A stretch of 64,000 nucleotides of DNA from Rhodopirellula baltica SH 1. GTDB taxonomy: Bacteria > Planctomycetota > Planctomycetia > Pirellulales > Pirellulaceae. Both the position numbers and the translations under genes were made by a program. The notes under the pieces were generated by a model, which made no database searches, was not told the DNA's origin, and saw only the letters and a program-made list of their open reading frames with translations. Positions 14,960 through 36,715 of this stretch are shown in pieces. Within the stretch, counting starts at the first letter, position 1. The number at the start of each line of letters is the position of its first letter. The DNA is taken from assembly GCF_000196115.1 (NCBI RefSeq), contig NC_005027.1, forward strand, positions 4,774,001-4,838,000, given 5' to 3'.

Positions 14960-16000
14960 ATGTCGCAATCGGTGGTGTCCAACAACTCATCCGCTTCCAC
15001 GGTGACCGAACCATCGCTGAGCGATGACGACGTCCAAGCAGTCGACCGACTCGGACGATTGACGCAGCAACTTCGAGACGAACTGGCTCGCGTGATCGTT
15101 GGCCAACGCGAAACGGTGGACCTGTTGTTGGTCTGCCTGTTCGCTCGACGGCACGCTTTGTTGATGGGAGTTCCTGGACTAGCCAAGACTCTGCTGGTCA
15201 GCAAGCTCGCCGAAACGATGTCTTTGAAATTCAATCGCATTCAGTTCACTCCGGACTTGATGCCCATGGACATCACGGGCACCGACATCCTGCAAGACAA
15301 CGGCGACGGACGTCGTGAATTCCAGTTCGCTCATGGGCCAGTGTTTGCGAACATCGTGTTGGCCGATGAAATCAACCGGGCACCACCCAAGACCCAAGCC
15401 GCGATGCTGGAAGCAATGCAGGAACAACGCATCACCGTTGTTGGCAAAGGCTTTGACCTGCCCCCACCGTTCATGGTTTTGGCAACACAAAACCCAGTCG
15501 AACAAGAAGGTACGTACCCGTTGCCGGAAGCTCAACTGGATCGCTTCATGGCGTTGATCGAACTGGACTACCCATCCGAAGAAGAAGAAATCGCGATCGC
15601 TCGCACGACGACGGGTGGACGCTTGCCAGAGCTTCAACACTTGATGACGGCCGAGAACATCATCGCCAATCAGGACTTGGTGCGGCGGATCCCGGTGCCC
15701 GATCACATCTACACGGAAGCCGCCCAACTGGTCCGCAAAACTCGCCCGGCCGGCGGAACCGCTCCCTCATGGTTGCTGCCGTTGGTGTCCTGGGGTGCTG
15801 GTCCGCGAGCGGTCCAGGATTTGATCTTGGGTGCCAAGTCACGAGCCGCACTGGAAGGTTCCTACATGGTTCGCACCGAGGACGTTCGTGCGGTGGCTCA
15901 GCCCGTTCTGACACACCGACTGATCACCACCTTCGCCGCCCAAGCCGAAGGCATGACCGCCCGAGACATCGTCGCAAGATTGCTGGAGGAGGAAGGCTAG
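14960..16000 (+). CDS. moxR: MoxR-family AAA+ ATPase
   Basis: A 346-residue AAA+ ATPase from ATG 14960 (MSQSVVSNNSSAS), preceded by CAGGAA. Walker A is GVPGLAKT at residues 70-77, and Walker B with the MoxR signature (LADEINRAPPKTQAAMLEAM) starts at about 134. The sensor region VLATQNPVEQEGTYPLPEAQ is also intact. MoxR proteins act as chaperones with VWA-domain partners, and genes for such partners follow downstream. Normally moxR and the DUF58 gene are close together; here 885 bases of repeats and a DUF559 gene lie between them. The frame is open upstream to 14474, but that part has no MoxR similarity and overlaps the divergent DUF1559 gene. Confidence 0.95.
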   Translation: MSQSVVSNNSSASTVTEPSLSDDDVQAVDRLGRLTQQLRDELARVIVGQRETVDLLLVCLFARRHALLMGVPGLAKTLLVSKLAETMSLKFNRIQFTPDLMPMDITGTDILQDNGDGRREFQFAHGPVFANIVLADEINRAPPKTQAAMLEAMQEQRITVVGKGFDLPPPFMVLATQNPVEQEGTYPLPEAQLDRFMALIELDYPSEEEEIAIARTTTGGRLPELQHLMTAENIIANQDLVRRIPVPDHIYTEAAQLVRKTRPAGGTAPSWLLPLVSWGAGPRAVQDLILGAKSRAALEGSYMVRTEDVRAVAQPVLTHRLITTFAAQAEGMTARDIVARLLEEEG

Positions 16001-16004
16001 GTAG

Positions 16005-16032
16005 TAGCTGCTTGCTACTAGCTGTTAGCTGT
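16005..16032 (+). repeat. Left heptamer repeats (4 units)
   Basis: Four consecutive 7-base units TAGCTGC, TTGCTAC, TAGCTGT, TAGCTGT begin four bases after the moxR stop. They fit the same T-N-G-C-N-N pattern as the 37-unit array on the other side of the DUF559 gene. Confidence 0.7.
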
Positions 16033-16034
16033 TA

Positions 16035-16111
16035 GGAAAAACAAGGAGCGTCAGCGACGCGATGTCCCCTCTCCCCCGGCTTCCGGGGGAGAGGGCAAGG
16101 GTGAGGGGGAC
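16035..16111. repeat. Left inverted repeat with 13-base GC-rich palindrome
   Basis: The core is a perfect 13-base stem (CCCTCTCCCCCGG at 16067-16079 with its complement at 16083-16095) and a 3-base loop. Together with flanking sequence to about 16035 and 16111 it matches the segment 16539-16611 in inverted orientation. Translated, both copies read PLPRLPGERARVRG. Confidence 0.8.
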
Positions 16112-16155
16112 ACGGATCAACAGGAATCCAAACCAATTCTCAAAGCCAACCAACC

Positions 16156-16524
16156 ATGCCAATCCGCCAACCACCTCAACTCACCCAAAACACACGCGAA
16201 CTCCGAACCAACCAAACCAAGCCCGAATCACTCGTCTGGACACTCCTCCGCAACCGCCGACTCAACGGACACAAGTTTCGACGCCAGTTCCCCATTCCAC
16301 CTTTCATTGCCGACTTTGCCTGTGTCGAGAAACGTTTGATCGTTGAACTCGATGGCGACTACCACGAACAGCAAGAGCAACAAGACATGAGCCGAACTGC
16401 TCGATTGAACCGCGACGGATGGATCGTTTTGCGGTTTTGCAACGCGGATGTCTTGGAGAACACCGAGGCGGTTGGTGTGGCGATATTGCGGGCGATGGGA
16501 GAGGAATGGCGAGGTGGTGAATGA
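16156..16524 (+). CDS. DUF559 (Vsr/PD-(D/E)XK-like) endonuclease-domain protein
   Basis: A 122-residue protein with a full DUF559 domain: SLVWTLLRNRRLNGHKFRRQ, then IADFACVEKRLIVELDGDYH, then GWIVLRFCNADVLENTE. The likely catalytic cluster is Asp53, Glu64, Asp66 and His70, in the pattern of very-short-patch-repair-like nucleases. DUF559 proteins are common and mostly uncharacterised. The gene lies between two inverted palindromic repeats and has no operon partner. Its first 20 residues are unstructured and rich in Gln, Thr and Pro. It looks like cargo, or the enzyme, of the surrounding cassette. Activity is not shown, but no key residue of the motif is missing. Confidence 0.85.
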   Translation: MPIRQPPQLTQNTRELRTNQTKPESLVWTLLRNRRLNGHKFRRQFPIPPFIADFACVEKRLIVELDGDYHEQQEQQDMSRTARLNRDGWIVLRFCNADVLENTEAVGVAILRAMGEEWRGGE

Positions 16525-16538
16525 TGGTTCTTGAAGAT

Positions 16539-16611
16539 GCCCCCTCACCCTAGCCCTCTCCCCCGGAAGCCGGGGGAGAGGGAACGACGTGTCGCTTCGC
16601 TCCTTCGGGAA
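16539..16611. repeat. Right inverted repeat with 13-base GC-rich palindrome
   Basis: An inverted partner of 16035-16111. The same perfect 13-base arms lie at 16554-16566 and 16570-16582 with an AAG loop. Similarity continues outward on both sides (CCCCCTCACCC before, GTCGCTTCGCTCCTT after, compared with GTCGCTGACGCTCCTT in the left copy), ending next to the heptamer array. Confidence 0.8.
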
Positions 16612-16612
16612 A

Positions 16613-16871
16613 TAGCCACTAGCCACTAGCCACTAGCTCCTAGCTCCTAGCTCCTAGCTCCTAGCTCCTAGCTCCTCGCTCCTCGCTCCTCGCTCCTAGC
16701 TCCTAGCTCCTAGCTCCTAGCTCCTCGCTCCTCGCTCCTCGCTCCTCGCTCCTCGCTCCTCGCTCCTCGCTCCTCGCTCCTCGCTCCTCGCTCCTCGCAA
16801 CTCGCAACTCGCAACTCGCAACTCGCAACTCGCAACTCGCAACTCGCAACTCGCAACTCGCAACTCGCAAC
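16613..16871. repeat. 37-unit heptanucleotide tandem array (STRR-like)
   Basis: Exactly 259 bases made of 37 heptamers without interruption, in blocks: TAGCCAC x3, TAGCTCC x6, TCGCTCC x3, TAGCTCC x4, TCGCTCC x10, TCGCAAC x11. All share T-(A/C)-G-C-N-N-C. Because 7 is not a multiple of 3, each block reads through all frames; on the minus strand it gives ELRVASC and ARSEERG repeats that appear as false proteins. Uninterrupted heptamer arrays resemble the short tandemly repeated repetitive (STRR) sequences described in cyanobacteria. It ends 14 bases before the DUF58 start. Confidence 0.95.
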
Positions 16872-16885
16872 TCACGTTTAGCACT

Positions 16886-17797
16886 TTGTCCGAACAACAC
16901 ACTCCTCGCGAATTTTTGGAACCGGCTGTCTTGGCAGGATTGTCGGGGCTGCCTTTGTTTGCGCGCAGGCCGATGCGAGGAAATGTTTCTGGTCGGCACA
17001 CCAGTCCCATGCGGGGCGCGAGTGTGGAGTTCGCCGAGTACCGGAAATACGTCCCCGGCGATGACCTCAGGCGGTTGGATTGGCGAGCCCATGGCCGCAG
17101 CGATCGCTACTACGTCAAAGAATTTGAAGCGGACACCAACCTGCGATTGCAACTGGTTTTGGACACCAGCGGATCAATGGAATATGGCTCCGGCGAACTC
17201 AACAAATTGCAATACGCTCGTCGCATCGCTGCCGCCATCGGCTACTTGGCCGTGCAACAAGGTGACGCTGTGGGATTGTCGTGTGTCAGCAATGGCATCA
17301 CCGGTCACCTGCCTCCACGCCGAAACCCGGCTCACCTCAAAACCATCTTTGATGCTCTGGAAGAAACACGCGGCCAGGGCGAAACCCATCTGGCCGATGT
17401 CTTGCATGAACTTGCCGAAACAACCCGCCAAGCCGCGATGGTGATTGTGATCTCCGACTTCTTCGTCGATCCCGATCAACTGCGAAGCTGTTTTGAACAC
17501 TTGCGTTTCCGCAAACACGACTTGTCGCTGTTCCATCTGCTCGATCCGATGGAACTGAACTTTGAGTTCTCTCGGCCCACACGTTTTCTCGACATGGAAG
17601 GTGGCACGGCCATCTTCGCCGAACCAAGCGAAATCGCAGATCGTTACCAAGACGCCTTGCGAGGTTACCTGGATCAACTCCAGCAAATCGTGGTGTCCTC
17701 CGGTGTCGACTATCACCGCGTCAGTATTGATCAACCTTATCCCGAAGTGCTCACCAACTTCTTGACACGTCGCGCGATGGCAAAGGGGGGACGATGA
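16886..17797 (+). CDS. DUF58 domain protein (MoxR partner)
   Basis: A 303-residue cytoplasmic DUF58 protein. It begins EQHTPREFLEPAVLAGLSGL and has the family signature EYRKYVPGDDLRRLDWRAHG and YYVKEFEAD near residues 50-80, then a VWA-like core with the metal site LDTSGSMEY. DUF58 proteins accompany MoxR ATPases. The start is a TTG immediately after the heptamer array; the frame is open back into the array to about 16725 but contains no ATG or GTG. The N-terminus aligns by eye with family N-termini, so little or nothing was lost. The gene overlaps the next by four bases (ATGA). Confidence 0.92.
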   Translation: MSEQHTPREFLEPAVLAGLSGLPLFARRPMRGNVSGRHTSPMRGASVEFAEYRKYVPGDDLRRLDWRAHGRSDRYYVKEFEADTNLRLQLVLDTSGSMEYGSGELNKLQYARRIAAAIGYLAVQQGDAVGLSCVSNGITGHLPPRRNPAHLKTIFDALEETRGQGETHLADVLHELAETTRQAAMVIVISDFFVDPDQLRSCFEHLRFRKHDLSLFHLLDPMELNFEFSRPTRFLDMEGGTAIFAEPSEIADRYQDALRGYLDQLQQIVVSSGVDYHRVSIDQPYPEVLTNFLTRRAMAKGGR

Positions 17798-34783: not shown

Positions 34784-34842
34784 GCTCTGAATGCACAACA
34801 ACCGACGTCAACATGCTCTCGCCGCAACGTTCCAATCACGCC

Positions 34843-34971
34843 GTAGGCCATGTTCCACATGGCGCCCCGCCCGATGCTTTGGAACAAAGCGAGGCGTGAT
34901 CGCCGCAGGTCATTCCAACGGCATGGTGAACGCCGCGGCCAGCGACCAGCGCCAGGTGGAACCTGGCCTAC
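34843..34971. repeat. REPIN-like element 2
   Basis: Left palindrome GTAGGCCATGTTCCACATGG (a variant with AT in place of AG) and right palindrome CGCCAGGTGGAACCTGGCC, with GATGCTTTGGAACAAAGCGA between. It belongs to unit 1 of the tandem duplication. Confidence 0.8.
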
Positions 34972-34983
34972 GCACAGGCATAA

Positions 34984-35054
34984 CGTAGCCGGATTCGCCA
35001 AGAATTCGGTGGGCGACTTCGCGGTGACTCCGAATTCTGGCGAATCCGGCTACG
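34984..35054. repeat. Large hairpin, GTAGCCGGATTCGCCA family
   Basis: The arms 34984-35009 and 35030-35054 are complementary over 25 bases with one bulged A (CGTAGCCGGATTCGCCA / TGGCGAATCCGGCTACG). The loop is 20 bases. An identical hairpin lies 303 bases downstream. Confidence 0.88.
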
Positions 35055-35059
35055 ACGTT

Positions 35060-35106
35060 TTACGGCGTGGGTAATTTCCATGGGACACGGTTTTCGTAGC
35101 GCAACC
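35060..35106 (-). pseudogene. Duplicated 3' end of the Gfo/Idh/MocA gene (relic)
   Basis: On the minus strand this reads LRYENRVPWKLPTP then a stop, matching the true C-terminus LHYEYRAPWKLPTV of the gene at 35363-36715. It lies exactly 303 bases away. It is only about 15 codons and has no start; it shows that the tandem duplication included the gene end. Confidence 0.85.
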
Positions 35107-35145
35107 GACGTCATCATGCTCTCGCCGCAACGCTCCAATCACGCC

Positions 35146-35274
35146 GTAGGCCATGTTCCACATGGCGCCCCGTCCGATGCTTTGGTACAAAGCGAGGCGG
35201 GATCGCGGCAGGTCATGCCAACGGCATGGTGAACGCCGCAGCCAGCGACCAGCGCCAGGTGGAACCTGGCCTAC
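35146..35274. repeat. REPIN-like element 3
   Basis: Counterpart of element 2 shifted by 303 bases, with the same end palindromes and the middle GATGCTTTGGTACAAAGCGA. Confidence 0.8.
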
Positions 35275-35286
35275 GCACAGGAATCA

Positions 35287-35357
35287 CGTAGCCGGATTCG
35301 CCAAGAATTCGGTGGGCGACTTCGCGGTGACTCCGAATTCTGGCGAATCCGGCTACG
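35287..35357. repeat. Large hairpin, second copy
   Basis: Same sequence as 34984-35054, shifted by 303 bases. It lies six bases after the stop codon of the minus-strand oxidoreductase gene, where a transcript-end hairpin would be expected. Confidence 0.85.
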
Positions 35358-35362
35358 ATGTT

Positions 35363-36715
35363 TTACACCGTGGGCAATTTCCATGGGGCACGGTATTCGT
35401 AATGCAACATCTCGTTGGCGGCTTCGTCGTTGGTGAACCGCTCCGCCTTTGCATCCCAATCCAATCGCTTGCCCAACGTTTGCGAAATGTTCGCCAGGTG
35501 ACAAAACGTGGTGCTGCGATGACCGATCTCAATGTCAGCATGACAACGTTCACGCGACACCATGCAGTCCAAGAAGTTGCGAGCGTGATTGACGGTCAAC
35601 ACATGATTGTTGGAAACCTCCGAACGTGTCTCTGGCTTGGCAAAGTCTTCTTGCTTTGAAAACTGACCGCGTCGTTCAGGAAGGATCTCGTACTGACGCT
35701 CGGAAACGTATGCGGTTCCCTTGGTCCCGCGCAGTTCGATTTCGCCTGACGCGAGCGTTGGGTTCATGCTCGTTTCGTATTGTCCAAAAACCGCCAAACG
35801 TCCCGATGCGAATTGGAACGTCACTTCCATCGTGTCCGGGATCGTTCGGTCGTCGTCGACTCCAAAACGTCCGCCCATCGCACAAACACTCGACGGTGCC
35901 TCTTCGCCCAGGCACCAACGAATCGCGTCGAGGTAGTGCACTCCCCAGTTCCCCATTTGCGAACTGTAATCCTGCCACCAACGAAATTTGTACGGAGCGA
36001 TGTTGTCTTGATAGGGTTGTTCGGCACGCGGGCCCACCCACATGTCCCAGTTCAGATGCGCAGGCGGCTTGGACGTGGGAAGTTTGCCGATGCCAGCGGG
36101 AGCCATGTTGCTGAGTCGATAGGCACGTGAGACGCAGACTTTTCCCAGCAAATCGTCCTGCACCCGCCCAGCCAATTCGTGATACAGCGGGCTGCTGCGG
36201 CGATGCGTGCCGACTTGCGTGACCCGGTTGAACTTGCGAGCGGCGTTGACCATCGCTCGTCCTTCGACGATCGTCGCCGACAATGGCTTTTCGACGTAAA
36301 CGTCCTTGCCCGCTTGGCAGGCCTCAATCATTTGCAAGGCGTGCCAATGATCGGGACTGGCGATGACCACGGCATCCACGTCGGATCGTTCCAACAATTC
36401 ACGATAGTCCCCGGTTTGAAAGACGCTGGCCCCCGCCGTTTCACTGGCCTTTTTCGCGGCCGCCGCCATCGCATTGGAATCCACATCGCACACGGCGACG
36501 GGTTGGCAATCCTCGTGCTCGGCGAAGGCTTTCATCAGTTGGCTGCCGCGGTTCGCGACTCCGATGAATCCCAGACCAACGCGATCGTTGGCTCCCGCCG
36601 CCCGAGCACGTGACAAGGCCGTTCCGGCCGAAAGCACGAATGTGGTCGCGGCAGTTTTCTGGAATCGACGACGAGAGACCGATTGCGACTCGGGCGTGGG
36701 GTGGGACTTTGGCAT
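35363..36715 (-). CDS. Gfo/Idh/MocA-family oxidoreductase, exported by Tat
   Basis: 450 residues from the ATG at 36715, with GAGGA at a good distance; an upstream ORF start at 36784 has no support. The N-terminus has a twin-arginine signal (SRRRFQKTAATTFVLSAGTA). The NAD(P)-binding fold begins VGLGFIGVANRG, with DVDAVVIASPDHWHA and the family lysine motif YVEKPLSA. It probably oxidises or rearranges a sugar or polyol in the periplasm, as proposed for the many Tat-exported members in planctomycetes. The substrate cannot be told. Its 3' end was copied by the tandem duplication next door. Confidence 0.92.
   Translation of the reverse strand: MPKSHPTPESQSVSRRRFQKTAATTFVLSAGTALSRARAAGANDRVGLGFIGVANRGSQLMKAFAEHEDCQPVAVCDVDSNAMAAAAKKASETAGASVFQTGDYRELLERSDVDAVVIASPDHWHALQMIEACQAGKDVYVEKPLSATIVEGRAMVNAARKFNRVTQVGTHRRSSPLYHELAGRVQDDLLGKVCVSRAYRLSNMAPAGIGKLPTSKPPAHLNWDMWVGPRAEQPYQDNIAPYKFRWWQDYSSQMGNWGVHYLDAIRWCLGEEAPSSVCAMGGRFGVDDDRTIPDTMEVTFQFASGRLAVFGQYETSMNPTLASGEIELRGTKGTAYVSERQYEILPERRGQFSKQEDFAKPETRSEVSNNHVLTVNHARNFLDCMVSRERCHADIEIGHRSTTFCHLANISQTLGKRLDWDAKAERFTNDEAANEMLHYEYRAPWKLPTV

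Follow-up and report, generated by a model that had tools for sequence, protein, structure and literature searches.

Bacterial genomes contain an intrastrand triplex motif, TM_ECO or the PIT element, which has been reported from more than 260 genomes (Holder et al. 2015, PMC4666352). E. coli MG1655 has 23 copies, with five inverted doublets, and the loci carrying them are more variable. The parts of that paper available to us report that triplexes form in vitro and say that earlier work found neither promoter nor terminator activity in the motif. They describe no mobility gene beside it, and they leave its origin and the mechanism of its instability open. Proteins with a DUF559 domain have been described separately. 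YcjD has been placed among the PD-(D/E)XK members, and a search with its profile retrieves Vsr (PMC1189080, in excerpt), while another source, also available in part, assigns a DUF559 gene to the EDxHD homing endonucleases (PMC9403480). In Caulobacter, a methyltransferase mutant depends on VsrA, a protein with a DUF559 domain, for its SOS response, and VsrA has been proposed as a Vsr-type repair protein, according to the available portion of PMC12907096; a DUF559-type protein can therefore act on DNA in cells. No link between DUF559 and the triplex motif was found among the matches listed in a search of open-licence PMC papers, which did not cover preprints.

We analysed a window of 64,000 nucleotides from Rhodopirellula baltica SH 1 in which a DUF559 gene and two such motifs stand together. 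We consider it fairly probable that this unit belongs, as a single copy, to a mobile (selfish) system that is widespread, similar to REP/RAYT and run by a Vsr-fold nuclease, and that solitary motifs are its non-autonomous copies. No nuclease or transposition assay supports this as yet.

The unit lies between a gene for a moxR-type AAA ATPase of 346 amino acids (14960-16000, + strand), identified from the ORF list and by site comparison, and a DUF58 gene (16886-17797, + strand). Inverted-repeat and motif scans place the left arm at 16053-16109 (+ strand), with a hairpin at 16067-16095 and a third strand, GGGTGAGGGGG, at 16099-16109 towards the gene. The order within the arm is CCCTCTCCCCC, loop, GGGGGAGAGGG, CAA, GGGTGAGGGGG, that is, a hairpin, 3 bases and a purine run mirroring the purine strand of the hairpin. 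The right arm (16540-16596, - strand) mirrors the left, its third strand, CCCCCTCACCC, at 16540-16550 preceding the hairpin at 16554-16582. The inverted arms are 57 nt each and 91% complementary, each contains a perfect 13-bp hairpin, and both score in the motif scanner with the mirror third strand on the gene side. Between them the DUF559 gene (16156-16524, + strand) encodes 122 amino acids that match PF04480 (E 2e-37) and, weakly, the Pfam family REase_MTES_1575. The element core extends over approximately 16039-16610. The initial annotation had proposed a DUF559 gene inside mirrored inverted repeats between moxR and DUF58, and the arms, hairpins, ORF and Pfam match were all found. It had also proposed that the unit splits two normally adjacent genes; moxR and DUF58 indeed adjoin in five species of the same genus, and the ORFs downstream of DUF58 in the operon overlap.

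The genome is a single contig of 7,145,576 bases. It contains no second DUF559 match at E<=1e-3, and a search of its 7.1 Mb for the cassette palindrome with up to 3 mismatches found nothing beyond the two arms (control 0). The shorter core pattern of the motif occurs six times: in the two arms, in a pair at 1.288 Mb and in a pair at 1.312 Mb. The 1.288 Mb pair (1287829-1288004) is a tandemly duplicated 155-bp stretch with one motif, and the counterpart of this stretch in the sister species G002 is a single copy without the hairpin part. No known transposase was found in the cassette, where DUF559 was the only ORF of at least 80 amino acids for which a Pfam match was sought and overlapping frames lay outside the scan; nor did the cassette match any PADLOC defence family.

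The heptamers on either side had been counted as part of the unit. A heptamer-like stretch on the left (16003-16037) can be read from the sequence, and the arrays on the right (16613-16873) are real, with a repeat unit and copy number that vary between sister species. Yet period-7 arrays lie within 500 bp of DUF559 at only 6 of 139 loci, every one of them the moxR–DUF58 site in this genome or its sisters, and we therefore exclude them from the element as local sequence. Elsewhere in the window, the tandem repeat finder identified a 303-bp unit that occurs twice (34799-35408, 94%).

By its layout and sequence, and without a biophysical test, the cassette repeat is of the same kind as the TM/PIT triplex motif. 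In single-strand folding the hairpins come out as stable, and the third strand also takes part in alternative pairing; this is not itself a demonstration of a triplex. The enzyme is predicted to have a fold of the Vsr/EDxHD homing-endonuclease type. Its PDB relative is 3hrl, and a structure model built on five sequences (pLDDT 79, pTM 0.73) matches both 3hrl (E 5e-6) and the homing endonuclease I-Bth0305I (3r3p_B; E 5e-4, TMt 0.76), with a weaker match to Vsr (E 4e-3 and 8e-3). Residues D44, E55, D57, H61 and D68 (domain numbering) are present in 122-126 of 126 domains; we take E55, D57, H61 and D68 to be the EDxHD residues, without an alignment.

The moxR–DUF58 site was compared in 13 genomes of the genus (G000-G012, G000 being our own), where it is filled in six, empty in five and was not found in two. 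The filled sites are those of G000, G002, G004, G009, G011 and G006, the last of which spans two contigs, with moxR, the left arm and the gene at the end of one and the right arm and DUF58 at the beginning of another. In G003, G005, G007, G008 and G012 moxR adjoins DUF58, so that the empty sites named beforehand as a check are present in close relatives. The two genomes in which the site was not found are G001, whose DUF58 match reached just 38%, and G010, which gave no match at E<=1e-60. No target-site duplication was evident by eye at the moxR site. The initial annotation would have been refuted by an insertion shared by all relatives at one place with no copies elsewhere; the empty sites, and the units at other places described below, show that this is not the case.

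The arms of G000 and G011 share 94-96% identity and their DUF559 genes 92-93%, while the flanking moxR and DUF58 are only 76-85% identical. Fourfold sites differ at 8 of 54 positions in DUF559 against 80 of 129 in DUF58 (p 2.4e-9), a contrast that is absent between G000 and G002 (13/52 v 40/147) and between G000 and G009 (18/53 v 55/148). Most simply, the cassette would have been exchanged between the G000 and G011 lineages after their split, at an unchanged site. A tree of the cassette gene agrees with this but is not decisive: it pairs G000 with G011 at 89/90, a pairing of G000 with G002 is rejected only at the margin (p 0.0504), and the tree omits G009, for which no right anchor was found, and has G006 without its right end. 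DUF559 evolves under constraint (dN/dS 0.08-0.20), which counts in favour of the mobile-system reading, but at this site its constraint is weaker than that on the neighbouring DUF58 (dN/dS 0.09-0.20 vs 0.02-0.04), and the G004 copy has a frame change near its end. A second locus of the clade was rejected as a clean empty site because our own genome retains both bracketing repeats there, with other sequence between them.

The association of enzyme and repeat was measured on 139 DUF559 domains, mostly from Planctomycetota. The set is part of the places found, made up of loci and 60 fetched stretches, as a rule the strongest first, with 4 loci from a related-locus search and 10 of 44 plasmid-collection records; duplicates (L002, L003, L009, L033, L038-L042, L080, L134) were removed before loci were counted. 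The related-locus search of genome contigs gave only 5 loci. Outside the Planctomycetota there were single loci from an uncultured deltaproteobacterium, Desulfobulbus, Rhodanobacter, Klebsiella, Neisseria, Azospirillum, Sinorhizobium and Deinococcus, together with two from E. coli, where the gene is ycjD, and two from cyanobacteria. Phages were considered as carriers and rejected, with 2 records.

The motif scanner found the strict motif within 450 bp of the domain at 82 of the 139 loci, and on both sides at 61, against 3 of 695 simulated flanks and 0 of 100 blocks from DUF58 loci. Blocks of the same loci more than 900 bp from DUF559, which include neighbouring copies in tandem arrays, had it in 49 of 292. 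When 31 loci without the strict motif were examined by eye, many had the cassette layout with a longer loop or spacer. An alignment that makes no use of the motif gave an inverted repeat straddling DUF559 at 106 of 135 loci (4 of the 139 were dropped for flanks shorter than 150 bp), against 2 of 149 displaced windows and 0 of 135 simulations; here, as above, simulated flanks are first-order Markov simulations. Direct repeats were also frequent (65 of 135, against 5 of 149 controls) because both hairpins and doublets can align in either orientation; the inverted repeat scored higher in 72 of 135 loci and the direct one in 58. If either a strict motif no further than 450 bp away or an inverted repeat across the gene is counted, 119 of 128 domains scoring at least 85 bits qualify, against 4 of 11 weaker domains, which include long helicase-like proteins; the nine misses among the 128 include the Sinorhizobium locus and one of the cyanobacterial loci. 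The third strand of the nearest motif points towards the gene in 55 of 69 cases upstream and 52 of 74 downstream. The similarity of the arms tracks that of the proteins (94 loci with arms scoring at least 34; Mantel rho 0.29, and 0.22 for pairs of less than 60% identity; p 0.002, the lowest value that 500 permutations allow), a correlation that shared ancestry alone could also give. The initial annotation had stated that DUF559 genes in other bacteria often have PLPRLPGERARVRG-like sequence beside them, and on the sequence evidence of these loci this is borne out, with DUF559 genes of several phyla flanked by such repeats.

The link is also seen between genomes. Among 392 Planctomycetota genomes the core motif is present in 40 of 63 with DUF559 and 44 of 329 without (OR 11.3, p 8e-16), and within 15 families the odds ratio is 4.4 (p 0.004), leaving out families that had one class only or were partly read. 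The reversed control pattern occurred once each in 5 genomes. A DUF559 match at E<=1e-15 is missing from 44 of the 84 motif-bearing Planctomycetota, some of which have 37-214 motifs, and searches of the 63 DUF559 genomes left 23 without an exact motif. In repeat-rich genomes the repeats far outnumber the DUF559 genes, by 346 to 1 in G143. Such an excess of repeats over enzyme genes is usual for REPs and RAYTs. The initial annotation would have been refuted by repeats that occur mostly without a DUF559 gene, and this is partly what we see, in the 44 genomes and in the ratio of G143. The motif-rich genomes without DUF559 do require that genes were lost or that another enzyme is at work.

Those 44 genomes are a reason to ask whether a different enzyme, such as a Y1 transposase/RAYT, moves the motifs, with DUF559 a passenger inside motif doublets. 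Y1_Tnp does correlate with the motifs (OR 2.7), including in genomes without DUF559 (OR 2.6, p 0.005). However, the DUF559 link is stronger, not only overall but both in genomes with Y1_Tnp (OR 4.5) and in those without (OR 65), although other shared genes were not systematically compared. Among the DUF559 genomes the link between Y1 and the motif reverses (OR 0.18), and the oriented bracketing of the DUF559 gene would not be expected for a passenger. We regard this explanation as unlikely.

Units and motifs are found at many places, several of them inside reading frames. A unit in G327, with a two-motif doublet on each side, splits an HMG-CoA lyase gene in frame that is uninterrupted in eight relatives. 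Genomes of families f63 and f82 have units that lie in frame within HsdM and, at more than one position, within HsdR. For the HsdM, one HsdR and the HMG-CoA lyase, Pfam recognises the domains of the host protein and DUF559 within a single frame. In-frame DUF559 domains recur in type I restriction genes (hsdR, hsdM) at L096, L099, L101, L103, L209 and L216. In our own genome the 1.312 Mb pair (1312058-1312187) lies in frame in rmlB; its product aligns to a solved RmlB (1g1a) except for residues 283-332, approximately 50 residues added at one point, and the rmlB of G002 has three motif units. Such copies encode peptides such as MGERARVRG. Near-identical copies also occur: G033 (contig C5, 326000-343000) has five tandem DUF559 units of approximately 1.54 kb each, and G010 has two copies (99.8% identical over 459 bp), one with an internal deletion. 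One of the G033 units is interrupted by an apparent IS element, judged by reading, with two transposase-like ORFs.

Four genomes without DUF559 at E<=1e-15 (G437, G262, G418 and G203) yielded 28 distinct motif loci, of which 16 are doublets without a gene and 12 are single motifs. Two of the four stretches had been chosen as already listed pairs, which raised the share of doublets. All 16 doublets have the orientation of the cassette.

A narrower explanation is that the system only homes, the nuclease cutting empty sites of the moxR-DUF58 type while the motifs merely help recombination and solitary motifs are decayed remnants. Homing would fit the predicted homing-endonuclease fold, and also a cassette that is younger than the sequence around it while its site has stayed the same. 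We nevertheless find homing alone quite doubtful, as the units stand at many unrelated sites and inside different genes, and all 16 gene-less doublets keep one orientation. That the repeats terminate transcription in both directions or, as hairpins, stabilise mRNA, and could be carried by any small gene, with DUF559 an ordinary Vsr-like repair nuclease, is very improbable: the hairpins are GC-rich, Caulobacter VsrA has been proposed as such a repair protein (PMC12907096) and a paper on Enterobacter 638 presumes a termination role (PMC2869309), each as far as the available text goes, but a terminator needs no mirror third strand, motifs lie inside reading frames, the 100 DUF58-locus blocks have none, and the excerpt of PMC4666352 tells of earlier work that found no promoter or terminator activity.

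Sites in E. coli were also compared. Some pstB-pstA spacers contain the motif and others do not; the difference is a unit of 92 bp accompanied by an 8-bp repeat, AACCGTGT, of which an empty site has one copy; 30 spread rows comprised 12 full spacers, 17 short ones and one stray match. This pattern reflects either insertion with duplication or deletion between repeats. In the tkt-ypfG and cpxA-yiiM spacers (L297, L298, L299) the motif is swapped for an allele that we take to be REP-like, the flanks being near-identical between strains; it is as if two repeat systems share sites. These two were rejected as clean insertions, as REP-like sequence stands where the motif is missing. Nor could two other sites be used as empty sites: at sapF-fabI strains without ycjD hold efflux genes (eef) instead, and zntA-tusA was not clean.

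The mechanism that we favour starts from a gene for a Vsr-fold nuclease (DUF559, in E. coli YcjD) bracketed by two mirrored triplex motifs. The nuclease would recognise the motif and break the DNA there or at the target, and host repair would then copy the unit. Copies without the gene, whether single motifs or inverted doublets, would be mobilised in trans, in the way supposed for REPINs and RAYTs. The sequence data support the association, the layout, the many different sites, the in-frame insertion, the exchange between lineages and a putative catalytic site that is conserved; recognition, cutting and repair-driven copying by DUF559 are inferred. The earlier suggestion of a self-spreading element comparable to RAYT/REP is to that extent upheld, by the flanking repeats in several phyla, the empty sites, the gene-less doublets and the in-frame copies, with copying and nicking unproven. 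We lean, by a little, towards a more general proposal: the triplex (PIT/TM) repeats may be the non-autonomous part of a mobile system whose driver is the DUF559/YcjD nuclease. Such a system would spread through breaks and their repair and could insert into genes in frame, so that host enzymes gain peptides and even nuclease domains. An enzyme is thus proposed for a class of motif whose origin Holder et al. left open, and it is present in many E. coli as ycjD. The system would be REP-like with an unrelated enzyme, and a source of natural in-frame domain insertions.

How does the cassette compare with known systems? With the TM/PIT motif it shares the kind of repeat, a hairpin followed by a mirror purine third strand as in both arms, and also doublets and unstable loci; no gene is linked to the motif in the available part of PMC4666352, whereas the present data tie it to DUF559. 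Insertion into conserved genes with the frame kept, an RPE-like feature, is shown by the units and motifs in HsdR, HsdM, HMG-CoA lyase and rmlB. The Rickettsia palindromic elements are likewise palindromic repeats in frame in many genes, but the accessible text of PMC10969869 mentions no nuclease gene. Vsr and Caulobacter VsrA, the latter with a DUF559 domain, resemble the cassette enzyme in fold; the role proposed for VsrA is mismatch repair, and repeats are not mentioned in what is available of PMC12907096. The EDxHD homing endonucleases (I-Bth0305I, 3r3p) share the fold and the E-x-D...H...D residues. However, the units read show no evident intron or intein and are carried between repeats, and the cassette DUF559, at only 122 amino acids, lacks the long DNA-binding part described for I-Bth0305I (PMC3943268, in excerpt). 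The likeness to REP/RAYT lies in a single small nuclease gene flanked by palindromes and in dispersed inverted doublets without a gene (PMC3116915, in excerpt). Inverted palindromes of one family bracket the gene at the window's arms and at other loci, and dispersed gene-less doublets make up 16 of the 28 loci in G437, G262, G203 and G418. The differences are that the repeat, a hairpin with a mirror third strand, is unlike REP, that the GTAG tag of REPs is absent from both strands of both window arms, and that the RAYT enzyme is a Y1 tyrosine transposase while DUF559 is predicted to have a PD-(D/E)XK/Vsr-type fold. Because its enzyme is of another fold, the cassette system is not a member of REP/RAYT; it works like REP/RAYT, and partly like the homing endonucleases.
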